Shown one piece after another: positions 234 through 27,825 of a DNA stretch of 27,825 nt (the stretch's first letter is position 1; the number at the start of each line of letters is the position of its first letter). The translations under genes and the position numbers were made by a program. Source of the stretch: a virus; the IMG/VR virus record IMGVR_UViG_3300047564_000181, positions 1-27,825 of that record; one strand, 5' to 3'. Under the pieces are notes generated by a model. It was not told the DNA's origin, did not search any database, and worked only from the letters and a program-made list of their open reading frames with translations.

Positions 234-579
234 CACGGAGCCTCTGTACGACATACGACTCTCCAATCCCCTTGTTACTCGCTTTGATAATCACCAATGG
301 AGAAGGCGCAATCACCAAACGCTTTTGTATGCGGTAGTTTTCTGCTTCTATCTCTGCCTCGCGCAACCAACCCGATAGGTCAATGCGACCATCACGCCTT
401 GGTGCCTTGGCTTCAATCACATAGCCATCGGTGTTGGCTGGAAGGTACACATCTCCGATGTCATTGCGCCCAGCACGAGGCAACCGCTGTGCGTTTAAAC
501 CTTGTGCCATTAACCAGTCAGCAAGTTCAATCTCAAATGCTGCACCTCTACGCTTGTTGCTCGCTTGCTGTGTTGGCAT
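214..579 (-). CDS. PD-(D/E)XK nuclease, Holliday-junction-resolvase-like
   Basis: This small protein (121 aa) is probably a metal-dependent endonuclease acting on branched DNA during replication or recombination. A short basic N-terminus (NKRRG) leads into a helix with acidic E16/E18. Then come D43 in NDIGDVY and the E56-A-K58 pair in YVIEAKAP, the expected order of the PD-(D/E)XK core. A glutamate-rich helix follows. The length matches archaeal/phage Hjc-like resolvases. I chose the ATG at 577-579 rather than an in-frame start 69 bp upstream because AGAAAGGAG sits about 7 nt before it and this limits overlap with the glycosyltransferase gene to 32 bp. The family call is firm. Resolvase versus another nuclease role is inference. 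Confidence 0.75.
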   Translation of the reverse strand: MPTQQASNKRRGAAFEIELADWLMAQGLNAQRLPRAGRNDIGDVYLPANTDGYVIEAKAPRRDGRIDLSGWLREAEIEAENYRIQKRLVIAPSPLVIIKASNKGIGESYVVQRLRDALPKL

Positions 580-1285
580 TTTGCTGGCTCCTTTCTGCGC
601 TTTCAATGGCTGCCCAGTATAAGTTGTAGTAGTTATCATCAAAGGCAAACCGCTTCATGTGCTTCACCAATGCCGATGTGTTGGCATAGACAGGCACGCC
701 TGCTGCTTTAACCTTACGGAAGAAGGCAATGTCCTCACCAATAAACTGCTCACCGCTTGCGTTGTTCTCTGCAAACACGAAGTCAGTCTCGCCATGCTTA
801 GCATGTAACGCTTTGATAACAGACTTGTGCATCAACACTAAGCCCAGTCCAGCGTGGTCTACCTTAAGTACTTGATTGCGTGGCAGTGGGTGCTTGTACT
901 TAATCTCGTACTCGTTCTCACCTTCATCAAAGATGGCAGGCATAGGTTGCATCAGTGAGTTCTCCATCTGCTTAGAGATAAAGTACACACCACTTACAAC
1001 AGGACGAGCAATCTTGTCAGCGGTATCCCATAGAATCTTGACTACCTCTTTGGTCAATACGATGTCGGAGTCAACCCACAACGCCCAGTCTGTGCCAACC
1101 TTGTTCCACATCTCAAATGCAGCCTGTCGTTGGCGTGCAATCTGATTACCCTGCACACGAATAGCGTTATGAAATGGCACCTCACCAGTGATGATGCTGT
1201 ACACCAAACCCTCTGTGAACTTGCCGTCAGTATTGCCATTGTCGCACCAAATAACTGAGAGAGTTTCTTTATTACTATGAGCCAT
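548..1285 (-). CDS. GT-A fold glycosyltransferase (family 2-like)
   Basis: This 245-aa protein is probably a nucleotide-sugar-dependent glycosyltransferase. An early beta strand (LSVIWCDNGN) and an arginine/glutamine-rich helix (NQIARQRQAAFEMW) lead to the strand WALWVDSDIV. There the D72-S-D74 motif would bind metal and the sugar nucleotide. A later acidic stretch (GEDIAFFRKVKAAG) and a late histidine in VKHMKRF match the acceptor-site and metal-binding parts of the fold. No signal peptide or membrane segment is seen. It lies inside the replication operon, with its ATG overlapping the upstream gene by 11 bp. That placement suggests an early enzyme, perhaps modifying phage DNA bases, a host component or a virion protein; substrate and target are not shown by the sequence. 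Confidence 0.75.
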   Translation of the reverse strand: MAHSNKETLSVIWCDNGNTDGKFTEGLVYSIITGEVPFHNAIRVQGNQIARQRQAAFEMWNKVGTDWALWVDSDIVLTKEVVKILWDTADKIARPVVSGVYFISKQMENSLMQPMPAIFDEGENEYEIKYKHPLPRNQVLKVDHAGLGLVLMHKSVIKALHAKHGETDFVFAENNASGEQFIGEDIAFFRKVKAAGVPVYANTSALVKHMKRFAFDDNYYNLYWAAIESAERSQQNANTASEQQA

Positions 1286-1694
1286 GTTTAAACACTTCCT
1301 CTGATTTGTCGAGTACTTCCATTGCGTTCTCTGCTAAGTCTTTCCAAGACTCACTCATGAGTCGGAGTTGTGTTGCGATTTCTTCTCTGCACTCTGGTCC
1401 GTGGTCCTCAGTAAGATGCTCAGCCAACTGCCCAACATAATCAGCGAACTGTAGAGACTCGAACCAGACTTGTGATGGGTCGTAGATTTTTTGTGTAGCC
1501 TCATCAATGCGTTCAATAAACTCTGGTAGTCCATCAAGTATCGCTTGTTTCATCTCCGTTGGTATCTGCTTGGCTGACAGCACTGCTTCCTCCAGCATCT
1601 CGGGAGTAACTGATAGTGCCTTCATCAAGGAGTCTTTTGAATTCCTCATCTGTGAGGTCTTGGAACCTACCGCTTTCTTCTTCTTGCCAAACAT
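1275..1694 (-). CDS. Hypothetical protein, helical, overlaps upstream gene by 161 bp
   Basis: This 139-aa protein is not recognised. It opens with a lysine cluster (FGKKKK) and continues as mostly helical, acidic sequence without cysteines clustered for metal or any membrane segment. The start at 1692-1694 is supported by GGAG five bases upstream. Later in-frame ATGs (1649, 1625) have poor ribosome sites. Its first 53 codons are read over the end of the preceding 108-aa gene in another frame. It ends 11 bp inside the glycosyltransferase gene. Position suggests an accessory role in DNA metabolism, but nothing in it states a function. Confidence 0.65.
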   Translation of the reverse strand: MFGKKKKAVGSKTSQMRNSKDSLMKALSVTPEMLEEAVLSAKQIPTEMKQAILDGLPEFIERIDEATQKIYDPSQVWFESLQFADYVGQLAEHLTEDHGPECREEIATQLRLMSESWKDLAENAMEVLDKSEEVFKHGS

Positions 1695-1860
1695 ACGCTC
1701 TCCATCCCACTGTCCACGAAAATTGTTTAGGTATAAACATCAACTGCGATTTAATGTCTGTAATCAATGGCTTAGTAGGGACGACTACATCCTCTGCGTT
1801 TAAACTACCCTGCAGTTCTCCAGCATTTTCTACTACTTTGATTTCCCATTTGGGTGTCAT
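1534..1860 (-). CDS. Hypothetical protein with long out-of-frame overlap at its 3' end
   Basis: This 108-aa protein is not recognised. The first half looks like a compact mixed domain (MTPKWEIKVVENAGEL, then a tryptophan-rich WTVGWRAYVWQEEESG). Next is an acidic helix (DLTDEEFKRLLDEG) and a low-complexity Ser/Ala/Asp/Thr tail that is probably disordered. It starts 9 bp after the helicase-like gene ends, behind a GGAG-type ribosome site. The final third of the gene is shared with the start of the next gene in a different frame. The tail being disordered fits the idea that it tolerates constraint from the overlapping gene. Confidence 0.6.
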   Translation of the reverse strand: MTPKWEIKVVENAGELQGSLNAEDVVVPTKPLITDIKSQLMFIPKQFSWTVGWRAYVWQEEESGRFQDLTDEEFKRLLDEGTISYSRDAGGSSAVSQADTNGDETSDT

Positions 1861-1869
1861 GACTTCTCC

Positions 1870-2649
1870 TTACGCTTGTAATAAATCTGCCAGTTGCATA
1901 CTGGCTGGGTTGTATGCAAGCCACACTGGACTTGCACCTGTCGAATCTGCGGGACCATAACGATTCTTTACCGCACACACACCCATAGATGCAATTTGGT
2001 TGTACACCGTGAGGATGAGCGAAGGAGTCTGAGCAATCTTTCCGTGAAGCGAACTGCTTGGTGGACATGGATTGCCTGGAGCGCCTTGACTTGTATGATG
2101 ACAGACAACAACAGCAGCGCCAGTTTCTCTAGCCCACCACTTGAGTTCACGCATGAGAGTGCGGAGTCCGCCCCACTCATCTTGTCCATCAAGGGTTACA
2201 TCAACTGCGTTGTCAAGTACGATGAGTTCAACATCTTGACCCATGCGCTCACGGGCTGCAAGTACTGCATCCTCTATGTCCTTAAGCGTAGGTGCTGAGT
2301 CAAACTCCCACATGATGTGGTCAGCAGGCTTGAGCATTTGTGCTGCCCATTCTCTGTCTGCTTCCATCAGTGGTTCTACTTCTTGTTGTGGTCTGCCTGT
2401 AATCATCGCAAGCAAACGCAAACTCATAGTATGTGAGTGTGTATCTGCTGAGATGTACAGGGTAGGAACCTGAGCATGGACTGCCAGTGACAAGGCAAAG
2501 GTAGATTTACCTGAGCCAGGAGGACCAGCAACCATGCTCACCTCACCTCGTCTAAACGCTATCTGCTGCTCTGCAAGAGAGCGCCACACTGTAGGCAAAG
2601 TGGCACCCCCTTGCGAGGCAGTCTTAATAGCACGAGATAAACGGCGCAT
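1870..2649 (-). CDS. RecA-like/DnaB-like ATPase, probable replicative helicase
   Basis: A single RecA-fold ATPase domain of 259 aa, matching the C-terminal motor of DnaB-type helicases and the short helicase-like ATPases of actinophages. Walker A is GPPGSGKST at residues 42-50. A catalytic-type acidic strand LYISADTHSH follows near 64-73. Walker B is ELIVLDN at 141-147, and VVVCHHTSQG near 181-189 resembles the sensor strand with its histidines. The N-terminal primase-binding domain of full DnaB (about 450 aa) is absent. No clear Shine-Dalgarno precedes the ATG, which lies 3 bp after the previous stop, so translation is probably coupled. With a CHC2 primase and an ssDNA-binding candidate in the same operon, a replication helicase or loader is likely. 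A RadA/Sak4-type recombination ATPase is the main alternative. Confidence 0.8.
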   Translation of the reverse strand: MRRLSRAIKTASQGGATLPTVWRSLAEQQIAFRRGEVSMVAGPPGSGKSTFALSLAVHAQVPTLYISADTHSHTMSLRLLAMITGRPQQEVEPLMEADREWAAQMLKPADHIMWEFDSAPTLKDIEDAVLAARERMGQDVELIVLDNAVDVTLDGQDEWGGLRTLMRELKWWARETGAAVVVCHHTSQGAPGNPCPPSSSLHGKIAQTPSLILTVYNQIASMGVCAVKNRYGPADSTGASPVWLAYNPASMQLADLLQA

Positions 2650-8214: not shown

Positions 8215-8424
8215 TTAATTAGATTTTCTACCCCAGGATATTTTGTCCCAGATTCTTTCGTGCCAGTAATAGATACCGACCTTGACTACTGTTTCCCAAA
8301 GCGCAATCAGCGCAGAAAGAGTTCCTTCGCCAGTGATAACAAATACAACAGCAAAAGAACTGAGTGTTCCAAAAATTCTATAACTGAGTGATTTGCTAAA
8401 CGAACGAGCCTTGGTTACTTTCAC
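8215..8424 (-). CDS. DUF2061 membrane protein
   Basis: This 69-aa protein matches the DUF2061 pattern. It starts with basic residues (ARSFSKSLSYRIFGTLSSF), has two hydrophobic segments (FAVVFVITGEGTLSALIALW and VVKVGIYYWHERIW), and ends ERIWDKISWGRK, where the YYxHERxW motif is characteristic. In bacteria DUF2061 genes are often found beside, or fused to, sulfate-activation genes such as cysC/cysN; this is from memory of the family. Here it overlaps the APS-kinase-like gene by 4 bp (GTGA, GTG start), which keeps that association. Its biochemical role is not known; transport or membrane anchoring of the pathway is a guess. Confidence 0.8.
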   Translation of the reverse strand: MKVTKARSFSKSLSYRIFGTLSSFAVVFVITGEGTLSALIALWETVVKVGIYYWHERIWDKISWGRKSN

Positions 8425-9167
8425 AAGCCAAGTTCTTTTCTTTTCTGTGTTGCTGAAATTGCATGTATGTCTGCACCTAAATCAACTTGCTCAATCTTGT
8501 AACCTACATCACGACCATAAACTATGTTGGTAATGTTAGGAAACTTTACAACGAAAGATGACCGTTCTTCGGCTCGTATCCGATTGGCAACTTCTTGATA
8601 AGGCAGAGGGTCTTTCTCGCTAGTGCCGTGAGTATCCCTAACGCCAATAACAACCTGTGCTGTACGCTCATGTGCTTTCTCCAATAGTGCGTGATGACCC
8701 TCATGCCATGGTTGATAACGACCAAGTAGCAAGGTAGTGGGTGCTTTCCAATCGTGTAGATTAGATTGAGCAATGATTAAATCTGTTTGACCTTTGCTGT
8801 CGTAAGACACAAAATGATAATCAAACTCAGTAGGCTTTTCCCATAGTTTGTTAGTGTCCTCGAAGCGACCCTCGGCAAGTGTGTCCATCCAGATACAGAT
8901 GTCAGGCTTGCCAAAGGCTGCACGAGTAGCAGCGGTAGGGCAGATGAAGTCAACAACAACATCTAAGCCTTGGCTAGATAGCATCTTAGCCATCTCACCA
9001 AGACGGCGAGCATGCTCAACTCTATCATCAGGCGTAAAGCCAAGGTCAGAGTTAATGGTTGCCCGTACATAATCAGCGTTTAAATGTACAGCATTGATGC
9101 GGTCAGCCAGAGCAGTGGCAAGTGTTGTCTTACCACTGCCAGGCAGACCAATGATTTGAATAATCAT
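8421..9167 (-). CDS. APS-kinase-like P-loop kinase fused to HxGH nucleotidyltransferase
   Basis: A 248-aa two-domain enzyme. The N-terminal half is CysC-like: Walker A GLPGSGKTT (7-15), HLNADYVRATIN (28-39) in place of the D-G-D-x-x-R substrate motif, LGFTPDDRVEHARRLGEMAK (42-61), and a following strand DVVVDFICPTAATR. The C-terminal half is a nucleotidyltransferase: LLLGRYQPWHEGHHALLEKA with H-x-G-H at 155-158, and a closing ISATQKR motif (237-243). HxGH and ISxTxxR motifs are shared by NMN adenylyltransferases and ATP sulfurylases. It may therefore make APS and then PAPS from sulfate and ATP, or the second half may act in NAD or another nucleotide pathway. The start overlaps the sulfotransferase-like gene's stop by 1 bp (TAATG). 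The domain calls are firm, the joint pathway is inference. Confidence 0.8.
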   Translation of the reverse strand: MIIQIIGLPGSGKTTLATALADRINAVHLNADYVRATINSDLGFTPDDRVEHARRLGEMAKMLSSQGLDVVVDFICPTAATRAAFGKPDICIWMDTLAEGRFEDTNKLWEKPTEFDYHFVSYDSKGQTDLIIAQSNLHDWKAPTTLLLGRYQPWHEGHHALLEKAHERTAQVVIGVRDTHGTSEKDPLPYQEVANRIRAEERSSFVVKFPNITNIVYGRDVGYKIEQVDLGADIHAISATQKRKELGL

Positions 9168-11786: not shown

Positions 11787-13856
11787 TTAGAGAACGCCCA
11801 TTACGGCATTGATATTTATATCGTCTGTGTAGCCTGTTGCTATTGAGAATGTTGAATCAGTTAGAGTAAGTCCAGTACCAGCGCTATATGTTATTGCTTC
11901 GCCAAACTGAACCCAATCTTGTCCTGAAAAACTTGATAGGCTGTAGTTATTTTGTACCCAAGAAGTTCCAGTGTAAAGAGTTCCTTCTAGGATATAGACA
12001 GATGCACCGTTAAGTTCTGTGTAAACATCAGCATCAGATGAACGACTAAGTGTATATGTGCTTCCATTATCTGAGTAAGTATAGATACCGTTGTCAGAAG
12101 ATGTTGTCTGTCCATTGACAAGAATTCTATATCCACTGTCAGCAGCAACTAAAGCAGCATGACCATCAATAACTAAAGTTCCTGCTGTTCCAGTTAAGGC
12201 AATGTTTGAAGTAGAGCGTAGGTTAGCCGCTGCCTTCCAAGTTAAACCATTAACCTTGTTATCTACATACTGCTTATTGGCAATGCCAAGGTTTACTGTT
12301 GGGTCAGCAGTTGTTAAGCCAGCATCAAGTGTTAGACCAACGATTGTTGTATATGTAGTACCAGAGGCAATAGTTGTACTGCCAAGAGTAGGAGCAGTGT
12401 AAACACTTGTGGTAGCAATCTGAACCCATGCGCTGCCTGACCACACATACATGTTATTAAGGACATCGTTCCAGTAGATAGCACCTACAAGAAGTGTGTT
12501 GCCATCGTTATCTACTGTTGGAGGGGATGACTTGCTACCAAGGTAGCGGTCATCAAATTGGTCATAAGTTGTAGCAGCAGATGATGCAGATGTTGCTGCT
12601 GAACTTGCACTTGTTGCTGCACTGGTTGCGCTTGTGGCTGCAGCAGAGGCGCTAGTTGCTGATGCTGATGCTGAGTTGGCTGCGCTAGTAGCAGATGTTG
12701 CAGCAGCCGTTGCAGAGTTAGCAGCGGATGTAGCACTTGTTGCCGCAGCGGTTGCACTTGCTGATGCAGAGGCTGCACTTGTTGCAGCAGCGGTAACGCT
12801 TGCATCCATTGTGCTTGCAGATGTAGCAGCACTAGCAGCGGATGTAGCAGCAGCAGTGGCTGATGCAGCAGCAGAAGTGGCTGAGGTTGCAGCAGCGCTT
12901 GCGCTGTTAGCAGCAGAAGTTGCATAACCTGCAATAGTTGCTACAGAAGCAGCAGCCGTAGTTGCAGAAGCAGCAGCGCTTGTTGCGCTGGTTGCTGCTG
13001 CTGTAGCAGATGCTGCTGCGCTTGTAGCACTTGTTGCCGCTGCTGTTGCAGAGGCTGCAGCCGATGTAGCAGAAGTAGCAGCAGCAGTGGCGCTTGTTGC
13101 AGATGAGATAGCAGAGGTTTCTGAACTACCTGCGCTGGTGGCTGCACTTGCTGCACTTGTTGCAGCAGCCGTTGCACTGGCAGCAGCAGAGGCTGCGCTA
13201 GTAGCAGCGGCTGTTGCTGAGCCAAGGATGCTGTCTACATAAATCTTAGGTGTAGCAGATGAGTTGACCATTCCTGCGCTGGATAGACCAGTGATAACTG
13301 GTGAGCCAGAAATAGTTGGGCTAGTAAAGGTTGCAGTAGATGCAGTGACTGTTCCTGTAATTGTAGCGCCATTAACAGTAGGTGTAGTAAGAGTCTTGCG
13401 TGTAAGTGTTTGCTCTTTAAGAGTACCTACGATTACACCATCGCCTGTTGCAATACCGTGAACATGTGTCTGGTCAGCAGCATCAAGGATTGTCTGGTCA
13501 ATATCAAATCCACGAGCAGCAATGTGATTCTCTGACTCACGGAAGTCACGACCTGATACACCGTGGCGAACAACTGCTCCTGCGGAGTGTGCTACACCTT
13601 GAGTGTTATCTTCGCCTCGATACACGCTAAGTGTTGTACCGCTTCCAGCATAAACTGTGACTACTTCTTCTTTGGAAGTATCAGGGTCAACAATAAGTGT
13701 GTAAGGGTAACTGCCTGGGAAGCCAGAGACAGATGCAACAATGAACGCGGTGTTAGCCGCGCCTTGTGCCTGTGCTGGAATGGAACCTGATAGCGCTGTT
13801 TCTACTGCAATCGAGGAGTAGTACCGCGCTGGGGAGCCTGGGTCGCCTGCTGCCAT
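11787..13856 (-). CDS. Tail fibre with Ala/Ser/Thr repeat shaft
   Basis: A 689-aa fibre in three parts. Residues 28-118 hold a beta domain (FIVASVSGFPGSYPYTLIVD, then VYRGEDNTQGVAHSAGAVV) also found in the adaptor gene next door, probably for attachment. Residues about 210-430 are an extreme Ala/Ser/Thr repeat shaft. The C-terminal 250 residues start YDQFDDRYLG (a typical fibre joint) and continue with AIYWNDVLNNMYVWSGSAWV, NKQYVDNKVNGL and an end domain rich in Thr, Ser, Gly and Tyr. YVDNKVNGL-type motifs are common in phage fibres. It lies directly downstream of the adaptor candidate. A trimeric shaft carrying a host-binding tip is the likely form; the receptor is unknown. Confidence 0.8.
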   Translation of the reverse strand: MAAGDPGSPARYYSSIAVETALSGSIPAQAQGAANTAFIVASVSGFPGSYPYTLIVDPDTSKEEVVTVYAGSGTTLSVYRGEDNTQGVAHSAGAVVRHGVSGRDFRESENHIAARGFDIDQTILDAADQTHVHGIATGDGVIVGTLKEQTLTRKTLTTPTVNGATITGTVTASTATFTSPTISGSPVITGLSSAGMVNSSATPKIYVDSILGSATAAATSAASAAASATAAATSAASAATSAGSSETSAISSATSATAAATSATSAAASATAAATSATSAAASATAAATSATSAAASATTAAASVATIAGYATSAANSASAAATSATSAAASATAAATSAASAATSASTMDASVTAAATSAASASASATAAATSATSAANSATAAATSATSAANSASASATSASAAATSATSAATSASSAATSASSAATTYDQFDDRYLGSKSSPPTVDNDGNTLLVGAIYWNDVLNNMYVWSGSAWVQIATTSVYTAPTLGSTTIASGTTYTTIVGLTLDAGLTTADPTVNLGIANKQYVDNKVNGLTWKAAANLRSTSNIALTGTAGTLVIDGHAALVAADSGYRILVNGQTTSSDNGIYTYSDNGSTYTLSRSSDADVYTELNGASVYILEGTLYTGTSWVQNNYSLSSFSGQDWVQFGEAITYSAGTGLTLTDSTFSIATGYTDDININAVMGVL
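12560..13225 (-). repeat. Degenerate Ala/Ser/Thr heptad repeat region within the fibre gene
   Basis: About 220 codons read almost only Ala, Ser and Thr in a seven-residue rhythm, often as pairs such as SAAASAT-AAATSAT. GCA/GCT and AGC/ACA-type codons are mixed, so DNA copies are not identical. The regular heptads suggest a trimeric fibrous shaft. The reverse strand therefore shows a long false Ala/Val reading frame. Confidence 0.85.
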
Positions 13857-21722: not shown

Positions 21723-24700
21723 CTATCCCAATGTCACAGGGTCATTTTGTAAGAAGCGGTTATAGAAATCTTCAAACTCTCCAGAGCCTTGAAGTAGTTG
21801 AGCGATTGTGCTATTCCACAAACCATCAAGGTCTGCATTGTCTTTTGCTGCAAGGGTTGATGACATTCCGTATGCTTTACGGCTTGCCAACTCTCGTGCA
21901 ACTTGTGTGCGTACATTTAGATAAACAGCCATAGCCTGAACTACTTGGCGTTGACCATTCTCCTTCATCCACTTAGGGTCATTTAACATAGTACGCATTG
22001 AATCCATACGATAGACCCACTTGCCTCGGTCTACGCTAAAGTAATCTGCAGCCCAGTCTCTATTGCGGTTAGTCATATCAGCAACCATCATTTGCTTAAG
22101 AGTCTGTAACTCCTCAGCGCCTGATTCATTGTATGACTCATAGCCTTGTGCAAATAGTTGTGAGTCAAGAAGGTTCATGTTCTTGCGGAACTCAATCCAA
22201 CCCATCTTGACATTGGCATCCTTCTTCAATTCTGCTGGGTTACGGCGAGTACGATAGTTTTCCGTAGAACCAGGAACAGGGGAATTGCCATACTGCCACG
22301 CATAGACCGCCTCTGAAAAGTCATACTTGCCATCAGGGTCATTGACCAAGAAGCCAATCATCTCAGGTGTAGTCTGACCAATCTTGTCAATTAAACCACT
22401 GTACTTCTGGATGTTCTTAAATGCATCTTGTGATGCAACGGCACCCGTTGGGTTATATGATGCGCTAACCAAAGCAGGACCCATCTCAGGGTACATTTCA
22501 AGAAACAAAGCCTCTGCATCTGCACCATAAACCTGTTGCAAACGGCGGAACTGTTGTGTGTAGAAACTCAAAGTTGAGTCATACTGTGCAGCAAATGGCA
22601 TTACCAAGTTAGAAAGAATCCTAACTCTGTATAGGCTGTCTGCTAGTGATTTGATTTCACCCAGTTCAGGTAGCGTATTGCGCTCGCCAAGGTTAAATCG
22701 AATTAACTCATAGCGGTAAACAGTATTAAATGTACGGCTCCATGCTTCATCTTGACCCTGCAAAGAAATAAGTTTCTGTGCTGCAGGTGGAAACAGTTGG
22801 CTTACCATTCTTTGAATAACATCTTTACTGGAGCCTTGTGGACCAAATGGAAGAATTGGCAATACACTTGATGTGACTATATCTTCTAGGTCTGGCTTCA
22901 TCAAAACTAATTCGTTAACTGGAATAGTTACGATAGGACCAAATCCTGCAAGTGCTTCACCTTGGAACAATAGGTCAAGGCTTCGGATTGGAATAGACAT
23001 CTGTGTTCCAGATGAACGCATTGCCTCTGCCATTCCCTTGCCCCACCCTGGGATAAGGCTAATTGTCTTAATCGCACCTTCTGGCATAGGTAGGACAATC
23101 TTGTTGTCATAACTAAACTCAGTAGTTTGGTTACCATCTTGGTCAACCACATTTGGCTGGTTACGCAGAGAAGAAATAACCTGTCCTGCACGGGCGACAA
23201 CTGCTGGATTATCCTTTGTAAGTCCATACCAACGGCGAATAGTGTTTTCCCATGCGTTAAAGAACGGCATGATAAAACGCATCTTTTCGCCTGCGTATGA
23301 CTTGCGAATAATAGTAAAGAGTGTGCTGTTAACTTCCCTGCGTGTAGCCTCAATAACCTGCATGCGTAGGTTGTTAACATCATCTACTGTAAGTTCGGCA
23401 GCATCGCCTTCGTTTAAACGCTTTGTAGCAAGAGCAATATCTAAACGATTCTTGTATTCAGCACGATAAATCTGACGGGCTAACGGGTGACGAGCCACTG
23501 TTGTTTCAGGCAATGAACCAAGGAAGTGGAACGCACGCTCTACAACCTTACTCATACCCTCACGCCAGTTAGCCGCTTCTGGGCTTGTAGGCACGATACG
23601 ACCAATAATGTCTGGCATATCTGGGTTATCCATAAAGTGTGTACGCAACCATTGCTCGGTTGCCTCGCCATTACGGAAGGCTTCTTGTACTTCACCATCT
23701 GGAAGGTAACGGTTGTAGGAACTGTATAAGTCACCAACAAAATCTTCTGCATCTATAGATACATTTAAACGCTCTGACATTACCTTGATACCAGGAACAT
23801 CAATGTTAAACTTACCAGCATAAGCAGCATTTTCTGGCTTACGCAACCAAGCAACAGCCTGCTCTGGCTTCATTCCATTAAGGAACATTTCAATCAGTGG
23901 GTCAATGCGACCATCAGGTGAGCGGAAAAATGTGTTAAGTTGGTTTGCATAACCTGTGTAATACTCAGGCATCTTAGGTGTGAGGCGAGCCTCAGTAAAG
24001 TTTGTGTGCTCAGCAGTAAATAATTGTGCTGGGTGGTCTACAAAATTGCGATAAGACTGTGCGTTATCTGTTTGAGAGAAAAGAATATTTCCTAGTTCGC
24101 CACGGAAAACATCGTCAATCTCAACAACTGTTCCGTCATAAAGAGTTTCTGTGCGGCGACCTGTACCCTGAATAGCACGAGGTCCTGCTAATCTTTTTTC
24201 TTCTACAGCGCGTGCATTTAGTCTAGTTAATAGACCATTCATGTCACGCTTTGCTGCAGCCTGCCCGTCAGCAAACTCACGAACAAGACTTACAAGCCCG
24301 TCTGTTGGATACTTTCCTGTGCTGAGGATGGCTTCGAGTTCGCTAATGCGTTTTCCAAAGCCCTCTGTGCCAATAACTCTGCGAACGCCTTGCGCTCCTC
24401 CTGGGACATTTCCTGCACTGGCTTTGGTGCCTTGACCCAATGCAAACTCTGCTGTGGCATCTACATCTCCTGTACCTTGTGTGTTAATAGTAGCATTATC
24501 CCAATCGCCTCTTTTAATTGCGGCAAGGTCGGCAACACTCTTTTGGTTTCTTTCAAGTCCTAGTCTAGCAGCCTTTGCTTTGTCTACAATAACATTTGTA
24601 GGTTCAGCCCAGATATGTGGCACGCCATCAATATCTTCTACCCAAGTACCAAAATGGTCTGCTTGTCCAAACTTCTCAAGGTTCTTCTCAAAGTGTGCAG

Positions 24701-27700
24701 CCACAGAATCAATCCATGCCTTAGGGTTGTTACGGGCATCTTCAACTGAGAATGTATGTGTAGCGCCACGGACGGCAACAGAGAATCCTGATGCAGGTAC
24801 ATCTCCAGTAAATGAAACTGTTGCCCCACCATTTGCAATGGTATCTTCAATAAGTTTAGCAACACGAGATTCTTCTGATAGCAACTGTTGCTGCTTCTTA
24901 ATTGCATCTAAGCGCTGCTCAGCAAGTCGAACAGATGGTTGCTGTCCAAAGGCTTCAACCATGTCAGGGTCAACAAGTGCTGTTGCACCACCGTTAGCCT
25001 TGGTGTCAGGCAAGATTAACTTGCCAACACCATTAGCACGCATCCAGCCGAGGATTGCATCCTCTTTGCCTTCCCATGCTGCACGAGTTTTCCAGCCAGC
25101 AGTTTCTCCAACACCAAGAATCTTTTGCAGTTCTGGATAATCCTTGAGTCCTAGTTGAGTACGATTGCCATTAAACAAACGCACATCAACAGGAAGTCCG
25201 TACACCTTGTTGCCAAGGGTTGCTCCCTGATTGCCAGGCTTACGGATACGGAATGTGCCTTCAACAAGCATATTCTGTGAAACATTATATGGGTTGATAG
25301 CACGCCATTCACCACTTTGAGGGTTAAGAAGTTCTACCTGATTACCATTGTCAGTGCTATTGATAAAACCTTCGCGCATGTCTGCTGCGATAGTTTGCAT
25401 AGAAAGTGACGGCTTCTTTGCTTTACCTTCTTTGACAAGTTCACCTTCACGAGTGCGAAGGTTCTTTGGCATTGTGTATGCGCGACCAGTTTTGCGCTTG
25501 TAAATTTCAGAGGCTGAAATCTGTGGCATAGCAGCATCGGCATAACGATTTGCAATATCCTGAGACAGGCTCATTGCTAATGGACGAGTATTATCAAACC
25601 CATTTATAGGAGTAGGTGTTCCGTGGTATAGATACTCGCCAGTTGAATACTGGAACACATCAATAATTTCTTTGAGTTGTCCCTCGTCTAACTTGCCATT
25701 GAGATAAGAACGCTCTGCTGCTGGAAGATAAGCAAGCAGTTGATTGTACATACGCTCAGCAGCACCAAACTCGTACTGCTTCTCAGCAAACGCACGGCGC
25801 ATCTCTACAGAATTTTCACGCAATCCTTGCGCTACCATGCGGCGGTCTGTAATGCGCTCAATGTCGCGGATGCGGTTTGTGTACCATGCATCAAAGCCTT
25901 CGCGGTTCAAGTCACCTAGAGCCATCAAGCCGTAGCCCTTAGCCATTATAGACATAGCACCTTCTGACACATTTCTTACTGTGTAACCAAGGCGAAGCAG
26001 AACAGAAGCCTTCCACATATCGTTCAAGATACCTGTGGTGTAGCGCCATGAATCTGGGTCTACTACATTGAAGCCACCTTCAAGAGCAGTCAACAAGCCC
26101 TTGTTCTTTGTAAGAACGCGCTCGTAGTTCTCAAGGTCAACCATTGGTAATGCGTTAGCACCTTGGCGCTCTAGGTAAGGAATCTTAAGAATAACATCGT
26201 CATCAGTCATTAAGAACTTGCGGTCGCGAATCATAGAGCGTGCAGTCTCACGGCGAGACTTGTATGCGCCCCAAATCTGTGCACCTGCTTCATCAGATAT
26301 ACCAAGTTTGCGGTTGATAGAAGTAATTGCTAAATCTTCAAATGACTCAACTACACGAGCACGAAGTTCAGGAGTACCGCCTGATTGGATGTAGTCGTTT
26401 AAATGTCTTTGGATAATTGGGTTTGCTTCGTCTCCAACAACGCGCCGAAGAAGCCCGCCAAATGCCGCAATTTCGTTATACGAATCAGAATCATTAAGGT
26501 TAATATATCCTGCTGGTTTTTCCTGGAAAGCATCGCCCACCTTATGTATTCCAAAGTTAACAACCGCAACTAGCGGATGATACTTAGTTGGTTGAAAGTA
26601 ACCTACTGTAGGGAAATTTGTTGGTGTATCTATGTCATCTGCTTTGCCACGGACACCAGCAGCACGGCGCTCAGCGCGGTTAATTGCCATCTTTTCAAAT
26701 GGTGATGCACCAAATGTACGCTTAGTTAAGTCTGCACCCCTGTCGTTAAGGGTGGTTAGGTAGCGGAAATAAACATCTTCATCAAGTGTTTTCATTAAAG
26801 CATCTGCTGAATCTAACTTGTTGATGTCATCTACAATGCCGTTAGTTGGAATATTGTCCAACATATTAAGTTCTGTTGTAGATGTATCTTTAATCTTATC
26901 CATAACAAAGGCTAAGTCTTTGCGTTTACGCACAAGATTATCCATAGAGTCTTTATTTTTAAAGACTGTAGCCATAAGGGTATCTGCTACATCATCTACA
27001 GTTTTTGCCTCACCAAGAAGGTATGACAATGTATCTGCATCATTAGAAAGTTCAATAGTTGGGTGACTGCGTAGCGCAACTTGGTCGCTCTTAGCCATCC
27101 ATGAAAGCGTATTGTAAAGTTCTCCGCCTTCTTCACGACCCTCGTTAATTGTTCTTGCAAGAGTCTCAGGAGAAATAATAGTTGTCTTACGGATGCTATT
27201 TGGCATAAAGAAATCACGAGCCAAAGATGAAGCGTTAGCATCAGCAGCACCTACTGGGCGAGTAACTACAGCCTTACGAGCAAGACCTGCAGCCTTGCCA
27301 ATTTTGCCTAGTGGGTCAGTTACTGTTGAGAAAAATGTATCGTAAGTACCAGTAATGGTGCGTAGTGCAAAGTCTGTTTCAAAGTCTTTGCGGTCATTAG
27401 GATTGAAGATGTCAAAACCTTCATCAAATCCCATAACCATATTTCCACTTACAGGAAACTTTGACTGCAAATAAGCAAGTGCTTGTCCTGGAGAAATCTC
27501 ATCACGATTTTCCCATGACTTCTTTGCATCACCAGTTGCAAGTGTTGTTAATCCTGCTGATAGTGGCTCACGAAGGTAACGACCACCAGTTTCGTAAGAT
27601 ATTTGTGCTGCTGGAAGTAAACCCTTTTGAATTACAAAACCTGCTGATTTACGAATTGGAAAAGATGCTGCTAATACTGATGAACGAAATGTATTGCCAG

Positions 27701-27825
27701 CAAGATTAAATGCATCTCCAACCCAATTCTTGTCATTAGATGACACAGAAGCAAGGTCAAACATTAAAGTCGGTAAGCCTATATCGTTGGCAAATCCGTT
27801 ACCTTGAAGTTTTTTGGCAAAATTG
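21723..27825 (-). CDS. Giant virion polyvalent protein (partial, 5' end beyond right edge)
   Basis: At least 2033 codons, read leftward. The frame stays open upstream of the ATG at 27762-27764 to the window end and still reads like protein (GNGFANDIGLPTL). That ATG lacks a ribosome site, so the gene begins outside. Counting from that ATG, residues near 713 read YLYHGTPTPINGFDNTRP, an ADP-ribosyltransferase-like start (YHGT). Near 1036 is HFGTWVEDIDGVPHIWAEPT followed by ERNQKSVADL, a module seen in phage polyvalent proteins. Near 1492 is MRFIMPFFNAWENTIRRW, resembling the LPD38-type module. The rest is helical. Such proteins are packaged and injected to act on the host or DNA. The exact domain borders are guesses, and catalytic residues are not verified. 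Confidence 0.75.
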   Translation of the reverse strand, partial: NFAKKLQGNGFANDIGLPTLMFDLASVSSNDKNWVGDAFNLAGNTFRSSVLAASFPIRKSAGFVIQKGLLPAAQISYETGGRYLREPLSAGLTTLATGDAKKSWENRDEISPGQALAYLQSKFPVSGNMVMGFDEGFDIFNPNDRKDFETDFALRTITGTYDTFFSTVTDPLGKIGKAAGLARKAVVTRPVGAADANASSLARDFFMPNSIRKTTIISPETLARTINEGREEGGELYNTLSWMAKSDQVALRSHPTIELSNDADTLSYLLGEAKTVDDVADTLMATVFKNKDSMDNLVRKRKDLAFVMDKIKDTSTTELNMLDNIPTNGIVDDINKLDSADALMKTLDEDVYFRYLTTLNDRGADLTKRTFGASPFEKMAINRAERRAAGVRGKADDIDTPTNFPTVGYFQPTKYHPLVAVVNFGIHKVGDAFQEKPAGYINLNDSDSYNEIAAFGGLLRRVVGDEANPIIQRHLNDYIQSGGTPELRARVVESFEDLAITSINRKLGISDEAGAQIWGAYKSRRETARSMIRDRKFLMTDDDVILKIPYLERQGANALPMVDLENYERVLTKNKGLLTALEGGFNVVDPDSWRYTTGILNDMWKASVLLRLGYTVRNVSEGAMSIMAKGYGLMALGDLNREGFDAWYTNRIRDIERITDRRMVAQGLRENSVEMRRAFAEKQYEFGAAERMYNQLLAYLPAAERSYLNGKLDEGQLKEIIDVFQYSTGEYLYHGTPTPINGFDNTRPLAMSLSQDIANRYADAAMPQISASEIYKRKTGRAYTMPKNLRTREGELVKEGKAKKPSLSMQTIAADMREGFINSTDNGNQVELLNPQSGEWRAINPYNVSQNMLVEGTFRIRKPGNQGATLGNKVYGLPVDVRLFNGNRTQLGLKDYPELQKILGVGETAGWKTRAAWEGKEDAILGWMRANGVGKLILPDTKANGGATALVDPDMVEAFGQQPSVRLAEQRLDAIKKQQQLLSEESRVAKLIEDTIANGGATVSFTGDVPASGFSVAVRGATHTFSVEDARNNPKAWIDSVAAHFEKNLEKFGQADHFGTWVEDIDGVPHIWAEPTNVIVDKAKAARLGLERNQKSVADLAAIKRGDWDNATINTQGTGDVDATAEFALGQGTKASAGNVPGGAQGVRRVIGTEGFGKRISELEAILSTGKYPTDGLVSLVREFADGQAAAKRDMNGLLTRLNARAVEEKRLAGPRAIQGTGRRTETLYDGTVVEIDDVFRGELGNILFSQTDNAQSYRNFVDHPAQLFTAEHTNFTEARLTPKMPEYYTGYANQLNTFFRSPDGRIDPLIEMFLNGMKPEQAVAWLRKPENAAYAGKFNIDVPGIKVMSERLNVSIDAEDFVGDLYSSYNRYLPDGEVQEAFRNGEATEQWLRTHFMDNPDMPDIIGRIVPTSPEAANWREGMSKVVERAFHFLGSLPETTVARHPLARQIYRAEYKNRLDIALATKRLNEGDAAELTVDDVNNLRMQVIEATRREVNSTLFTIIRKSYAGEKMRFIMPFFNAWENTIRRWYGLTKDNPAVVARAGQVISSLRNQPNVVDQDGNQTTEFSYDNKIVLPMPEGAIKTISLIPGWGKGMAEAMRSSGTQMSIPIRSLDLLFQGEALAGFGPIVTIPVNELVLMKPDLEDIVTSSVLPILPFGPQGSSKDVIQRMVSQLFPPAAQKLISLQGQDEAWSRTFNTVYRYELIRFNLGERNTLPELGEIKSLADSLYRVRILSNLVMPFAAQYDSTLSFYTQQFRRLQQVYGADAEALFLEMYPEMGPALVSASYNPTGAVASQDAFKNIQKYSGLIDKIGQTTPEMIGFLVNDPDGKYDFSEAVYAWQYGNSPVPGSTENYRTRRNPAELKKDANVKMGWIEFRKNMNLLDSQLFAQGYESYNESGAEELQTLKQMMVADMTNRNRDWAADYFSVDRGKWVYRMDSMRTMLNDPKWMKENGQRQVVQAMAVYLNVRTQVARELASRKAYGMSSTLAAKDNADLDGLWNSTIAQLLQGSGEFEDFYNRFLQNDPVTLG

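Follow-up and report, generated by a model that had tools for sequence, protein, structure and literature searches.

When two tailed-phage genes overlap over a long stretch in different frames, the overlap is often put down to a wrongly called start site. A pair of small genes on the reverse strand of a virus record of 27,825 bases (IMG/VR IMGVR_UViG_3300047564_000181), which we analysed in its full length and call the window, raises the question of whether such an overlap can be genuine. A sequence-only reading had noted that a gene of 108 residues ends 161 bp inside a gene of 139 residues, and had offered three interpretations of the shared stretch: true dual coding, a frameshift site, or a wrong start for one of the genes. 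We favour, with a probability of about 0.92, two separate proteins produced from one message, their genes sharing an overlap of divided constraint in which the acidic tail of the first protein is kept.

Geometry and conservation of the overlap

Gene 1 (1534..1860, reverse strand, 108 residues) and gene 2 (1275..1694, reverse strand, 139 residues) both start with ATG, and their ORF coordinates, 1860-1534 and 1694-1275, yield a same-strand, out-of-frame overlap of exactly 161 bp at 1534..1694 (reverse strand), as originally described. The 3' end of gene 1 covers the 5' end of gene 2 in a different frame, so this is a terminal overlap; gene 2 codons begin one nucleotide after those of gene 1, which corresponds to a +1 frame relation. 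The start signals that had been pointed out are present, with GGAG located 5 nt upstream of both ATGs, at 1866..1869 for gene 1 and at 1700..1703 for gene 2 (both reverse strand), the latter within Gly-Trp-Arg codons of gene 1. In the following, part A of the overlap denotes gene 2 codons 1-25 (1620..1694, reverse strand) and part B the stretch from gene 2 codon 26 to the gene 1 stop (1534..1619, reverse strand), which encodes the acidic tail of gene 1.

Relatives were collected in scans of viral contigs, from each of which at most 80 were taken (in the largest scan, 80 of 205). Including the window, 412 sequences were examined, 410 of which hold gene 2; four that are cut at the 5' end were excluded, and the remainder collapse to 123 distinct sequences, among them the window. 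From these we obtained 74 representatives with a mutual difference above 3% and a median nucleotide divergence of 0.42; some tests were carried out on 45 representatives.

The overlap lengths range from 143 to 179 bp (161 bp in 76 distinct sequences, 158 in 27, 149 in 13, 179 in four, and 170 and 143 in one each). Gene 1 without gene 2 was not found at any locus among the 412 sequences, and gene 2 without gene 1 only in the four loci cut at the 5' end. When we resampled gene 2 among synonymous codons, the gene 1 frame was open over the overlap in a mean of 7.5% of draws (45 representatives; 10.2% for the window). Since the frame is in fact open across the gene 2 start in 122 of the 123 distinct sequences, the overlap exceeds what chance would produce. 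A wrong start for one gene would be betrayed by relatives in which gene 1 stops early or gene 2 starts after position 1534; we searched for both and found neither, except in contig L185, the single sequence without an open frame, which contains Ns and a frame break. This speaks against the wrong-start interpretation.

Open frames and divided constraint

In none of the 74 representatives does gene 1 stop sooner than 143 bp after the start of gene 2. Over the stretch delimited in this way, whose endpoint is set from the data by the first such stop, the gene 1 frame contains stops in 0 of 3344 codons, as opposed to 356 of 3257 in a stretch of the same size on the far side of the overlap. Alignment columns in which a synonymous gene 2 change makes a stop in the gene 1 frame are used in 0 of 24 cases within the overlap and in 32 of 33 beyond it (Fisher 3e-15), and part B alone, for which fixed columns were taken in the stop and constraint counts, yields 0 of 9 against the same 32 of 33 (Fisher p 2e-8), where the p values serve as guides, because the representatives are related and the columns are not independent events. 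Stop junction columns in the gene 2 frame are used in 0 of 7 cases within the overlap and in 22 of 23 upstream. The third frame, our control, uses its stop columns in 6 of 6 and 22 of 25 cases and therefore shows no stop avoidance. Measured against this control, both gene frames appear to be kept open by selection among the relatives. A third-frame ORF nested in gene 2 (1355-1537, reverse strand) was considered as a further gene and ruled out, as its stops are not avoided; it often starts at the gene 1 stop and comprises at least 56 residues in 33 of 45 representatives, being short in the other 12.

Counted by gene 1 codon position, in the order 2, 3, 1, the differences among the 74 representatives were 0.264, 0.454 and 0.321 in part A, and 0.474, 0.280 and 0.498 in part B. 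The corresponding values were 0.321, 0.205 and 0.520 in the gene-2-only region and 0.362, 0.588 and 0.396 in the gene-1-only region, a control that is slightly noisy because the region upstream of gene 2 was aligned without gaps, despite an extra codon in part of a clade that uses TTG as the gene 2 start. Part A therefore has the rhythm of gene 1 and part B that of gene 2, and the same phase switch is seen with 45 representatives.

We further computed dNN/dSN and dNN/dNS from 196 close pairs, using a simplified version of our own of an OLGenie-like count. For gene 1, dNN/dSN was 0.22 (0.13-0.36) in part A and 1.10 (0.79-1.72) in part B, with a control value of 1.07 (0.78-1.49). For gene 2, dNN/dNS was 0.51 (0.27-0.90) in part A, 0.40 (0.29-0.53) in part B and 0.20 (0.15-0.27) beyond the overlap, with a control value of 0.78 (0.60-1.04); codons 9-25 alone gave 0.55 (0.26-1.08), an interval that includes 1. 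The gene 1 tail is therefore free in sequence and the gene 2 leader weakly held. Each shared stretch thus seems to be constrained mainly in one frame, with a hand-over about half way. Hence the proposal of dual coding stands as regards the frames, both of which are held open, but not as regards amino-acid constraint, which is not dual throughout.

To obtain the charge expected of the gene 1 tail, we took the protein sequence of gene 2 and its codon usage as given and required the gene 1 frame to stay open. The observed net charge averaged −4.5 compared to an expected +1.7 (mean z −3.62, 45 representatives), and eight control stretches of gene 2 gave −1.22 to +0.47 in the same test. The acidic bias of the tail is not imposed by gene 2 coding. 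The basic leader of gene 2 has a charge of +6.8 versus +5.8 expected from gene 1 coding and seems to be largely what the gene 1 code gives anyway.

These results bear on the explanation that the gene 1 frame is open merely as a by-product of gene 2 codons and that the function of gene 1 ends around residue 88. The dNN/dSN of the tail, which indicates an unconstrained sequence, agrees with it, but the unused stop junction columns of part B and an acidity that gene 2 does not impose argue against it, and we consider it very improbable.

AlphaFold2, run for each protein on an alignment of 45 sequences, predicts for gene 1 an alpha/beta domain (approximately residues 1-88) and an acidic low-confidence tail (mean pLDDT 75.3, pTM 0.55). 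Residues 91-108 have a pLDDT <50, in agreement with the low-complexity tail noticed at the outset. The gene 2 model (mean pLDDT 66.5, pTM 0.37, no residue ≥90) is too weak for fold claims; it comprises a basic N-terminal stretch (residues 1-24, pLDDT <50) and a helical remainder, with five helices within residues 31-136. The description of gene 2 as beginning in helical, protein-like sequence is thus only partly borne out, as it does not apply to this first stretch. The low-confidence ends of the two proteins are complementary, each lying opposite better-modelled parts of the partner, as far as the overall poor gene 2 model allows this comparison. Both ends may be disordered.

The gene 2 start and the remaining alternatives

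The gene 2 start codon (1692..1694, reverse strand, ATG in the window) is ATG in 88 and TTG in 34 of the 123 distinct sequences, invariably at one and the same place, with L185 left out of the count. In the TTG clade, the gene 1 tyrosine is replaced by leucine, isoleucine or valine. GGAGG is found upstream in 27 of 28 TTG representatives, compared to 11 of 46 with ATG, which fits a stronger SD compensating for the TTG start, an association that is not an independent test, since the TTG loci seem to form a single clade. In the 45 representatives, the gene 1 tyrosine and valine over the gene 2 start are always encoded by TAT and GTT, and the arginine at the gene 2 GGAG by AGA or AGG only; CGN arginine codons and the alternative tyrosine and valine codons do occur elsewhere in both genes. 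No conserved RNA structure was found at the gene 2 start in 45 sequences (consensus energy −0.4 kcal/mol).

Gene 2 might nevertheless truly start further downstream, for instance at an internal methionine, its apparent N-terminus being an artefact of the open frame in gene 1, and both the weak constraint on residues 9-25 and the low pLDDT of residues 1-24 are in line with this. However, gene-2-frame stops are avoided in all seven overlap columns and used in almost all upstream ones, the SD and the start position persist unchanged through the substitution of ATG by TTG, the wobble positions of the tyrosine and valine codons are invariant in the 45 representatives, and no conserved internal start is visible in the alignment. 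A later start is therefore highly unlikely. Least credible is the frameshift site, at which genes 1 and 2 would be fused by programmed +1 frameshifting within the overlap: gene 2 does lie in the +1 frame throughout, but its own conserved SD and start would be superfluous for a fusion, the site where gene 1 terminates (its final codon, the stop and the base that follows), the one place where slippery context was judged, has no common form and varies widely (TGA in 29, TAG in 9 and TAA in 7 of 45), and the gene 2 start lacks a conserved RNA fold.

For two separate proteins, and thus for true dual coding, speak the near-universal retention of the overlap, the avoidance of stops in both frames and the preservation of the gene 2 ribosome-binding site and start position. 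This comparative evidence suggests that both genes are translated through the overlap. Gene 1 would be translated from its own start to a stop about 150-180 nt past the gene 2 start, and gene 2 would be initiated by other ribosomes, or by the same ones via coupling, at an SD and start that sit inside the conserved Gly-Trp-Arg-x-Tyr-Val-Trp codons of gene 1. Over the first half of the overlap, the folded part of gene 1 would dictate the sequence and gene 2 would carry a loose basic leader; in part B these roles would be reversed, with the sequence set by the helical part of gene 2 and a disordered tail carried by gene 1, a tail maintained in its open frame and acidity and free in its exact sequence. 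The overlap may be tolerated because constraint is divided in this way.

Neighbourhood, relatives and known overlaps

The pair is preceded by a DnaB-like helicase gene (1870..2649, reverse strand; PHROG 243, E 7.7e-75) and followed by a glycosyltransferase-like gene (548..1285, reverse strand; PHROG 34859, E 1.2e-120), which overlaps gene 2 by 11 bp. A helicase relative upstream and a resolvase relative downstream were found in 45 of 45 representatives each, and the glycosyltransferase in 44 of 45. The exception is L191, in which the resolvase relative directly follows gene 2 (−10 bp) and no glycosyltransferase match was found, so the pair is independent of this neighbour. In several lineages (L032, L067, L070 and others), helicase and gene 1 are spaced by about 120-136 bp, and L032 has a small hydrophobic ORF between them. 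The neighbourhood suggests a replication-related role of the pair. It is conceivable, though in our view unlikely, that the acidic gene 1 tail and the basic gene 2 leader are binding partners, or competitors for DNA, within the replication complex, the overlap being kept as the products cooperate and internal initiation fixes their ratio.

Elsewhere in the window, all on the reverse strand, a single ORF at 8421-9167 combines an APS-kinase-like P-loop part (E 1.2e-16) with a cytidylyltransferase-like part (E 1.6e-05), an ORF of 689 residues at 11787-13856 lacks a Pfam match and has a long, repeat-like central region rich in Ala/Ser/Thr, and an ORF of 2013 residues at 21723-27764 has no Pfam match at E 0.001.

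Neither gene matches Pfam above the cut-off, and the two proteins of the window have no match below 0.03 in PHROGs. Among the 45 representatives, ten gene 1 proteins weakly match phrog_583, of unknown function (best E 0.0013), and four PHROGs are hit by gene 2 members, none of them by more than 3 of the 45 (best E 0.0043). Foldseek searches of the PDB with both models found nothing that reached E 0.001; of the searches against PDB sequences, one had a designed repeat protein as best match (E 0.013) and the other had no match. Scanning genome contigs with gene 2 gave 282 candidate stretches, of which 0 were confirmed, and queries with two proteins of each gene had no match among INPHARED phages.

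The capsid protein of the window is 71.7% identical to that of OX376640 and 70.6% to that of OX376641. The former is LanE43-AprE7 (E7), a Planktophila phage in the portion of PMC10202952 available to us, and the overlap-bearing phages, which are uncultured, appear to be related to Planktophila phages. Any host or habitat ascribed to the window is putative, since it derives from the comparison with E7 and OX376641. In E7, an ORF of 65 residues comes after the helicase ORF, and an 11-kb slice contains no credible match to gene 1 or gene 2, nor was a phrog_583 match found in this phage.

Overlapped two-component spanins of phages are exemplified by LysB/LysC of P2. According to the accessible text of PMC6139136, spanin pairs share with ours a same-strand, out-of-frame overlap in a tailed phage, and gene callers frequently overlook overlapped spanin genes or assign them a wrong start; unlike our pair, which sits in a replication gene cluster, spanin genes belong to the lysis cassette and encode one inner-membrane protein and one lipoprotein. 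An Rz/Rz1-type spanin pair was rejected, as cysteine is absent from gene 1, and gene 2 has a single one at residue 102, with none near its start. In HIV-1 tat/rev, judging from the available part of PMC9119678, shared stretches likewise serve mainly one protein, and disordered parts face functional parts of the partner. Our case differs in being a terminal overlap of two small phage proteins without splicing, whose constraint pattern derives from comparative sequence analysis and predicted disorder alone. The +1 terminal overlaps of DNA viruses have the same orientation and frame relation, but in the portion of PMC8903798 at hand their median length is 14 nt (interquartile range 8-26), compared to 143-179 nt here. 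Overlaps longer than 50 nt are nonetheless frequent, being given for 61% of dsDNA virus genomes in the text available of PMC7017920. From the parts accessible of these and a further source, extended overlaps in viruses, disordered regions in the proteins of overlapping genes, segregated constraint and mis-annotated phage overlaps are already well known (PMC7017920, PMC8903798, PMC8227390, PMC9119678, PMC6139136); a literature search covering few subscription journals found no paper on this gene pair.

The overlap thus appears to be real, conserved and dual-coding, with divided constraint, and since both proteins are unannotated, it argues that both are real genes. It persists among 74 representatives whose median nucleotide divergence is 0.42, even where the start codon has switched, and could serve as a positive control for gene callers. 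Within 161 bp it shows how constraint can pass from one gene to the next, and it offers a tractable case of a putatively disordered tail in which composition rather than sequence is apparently selected.
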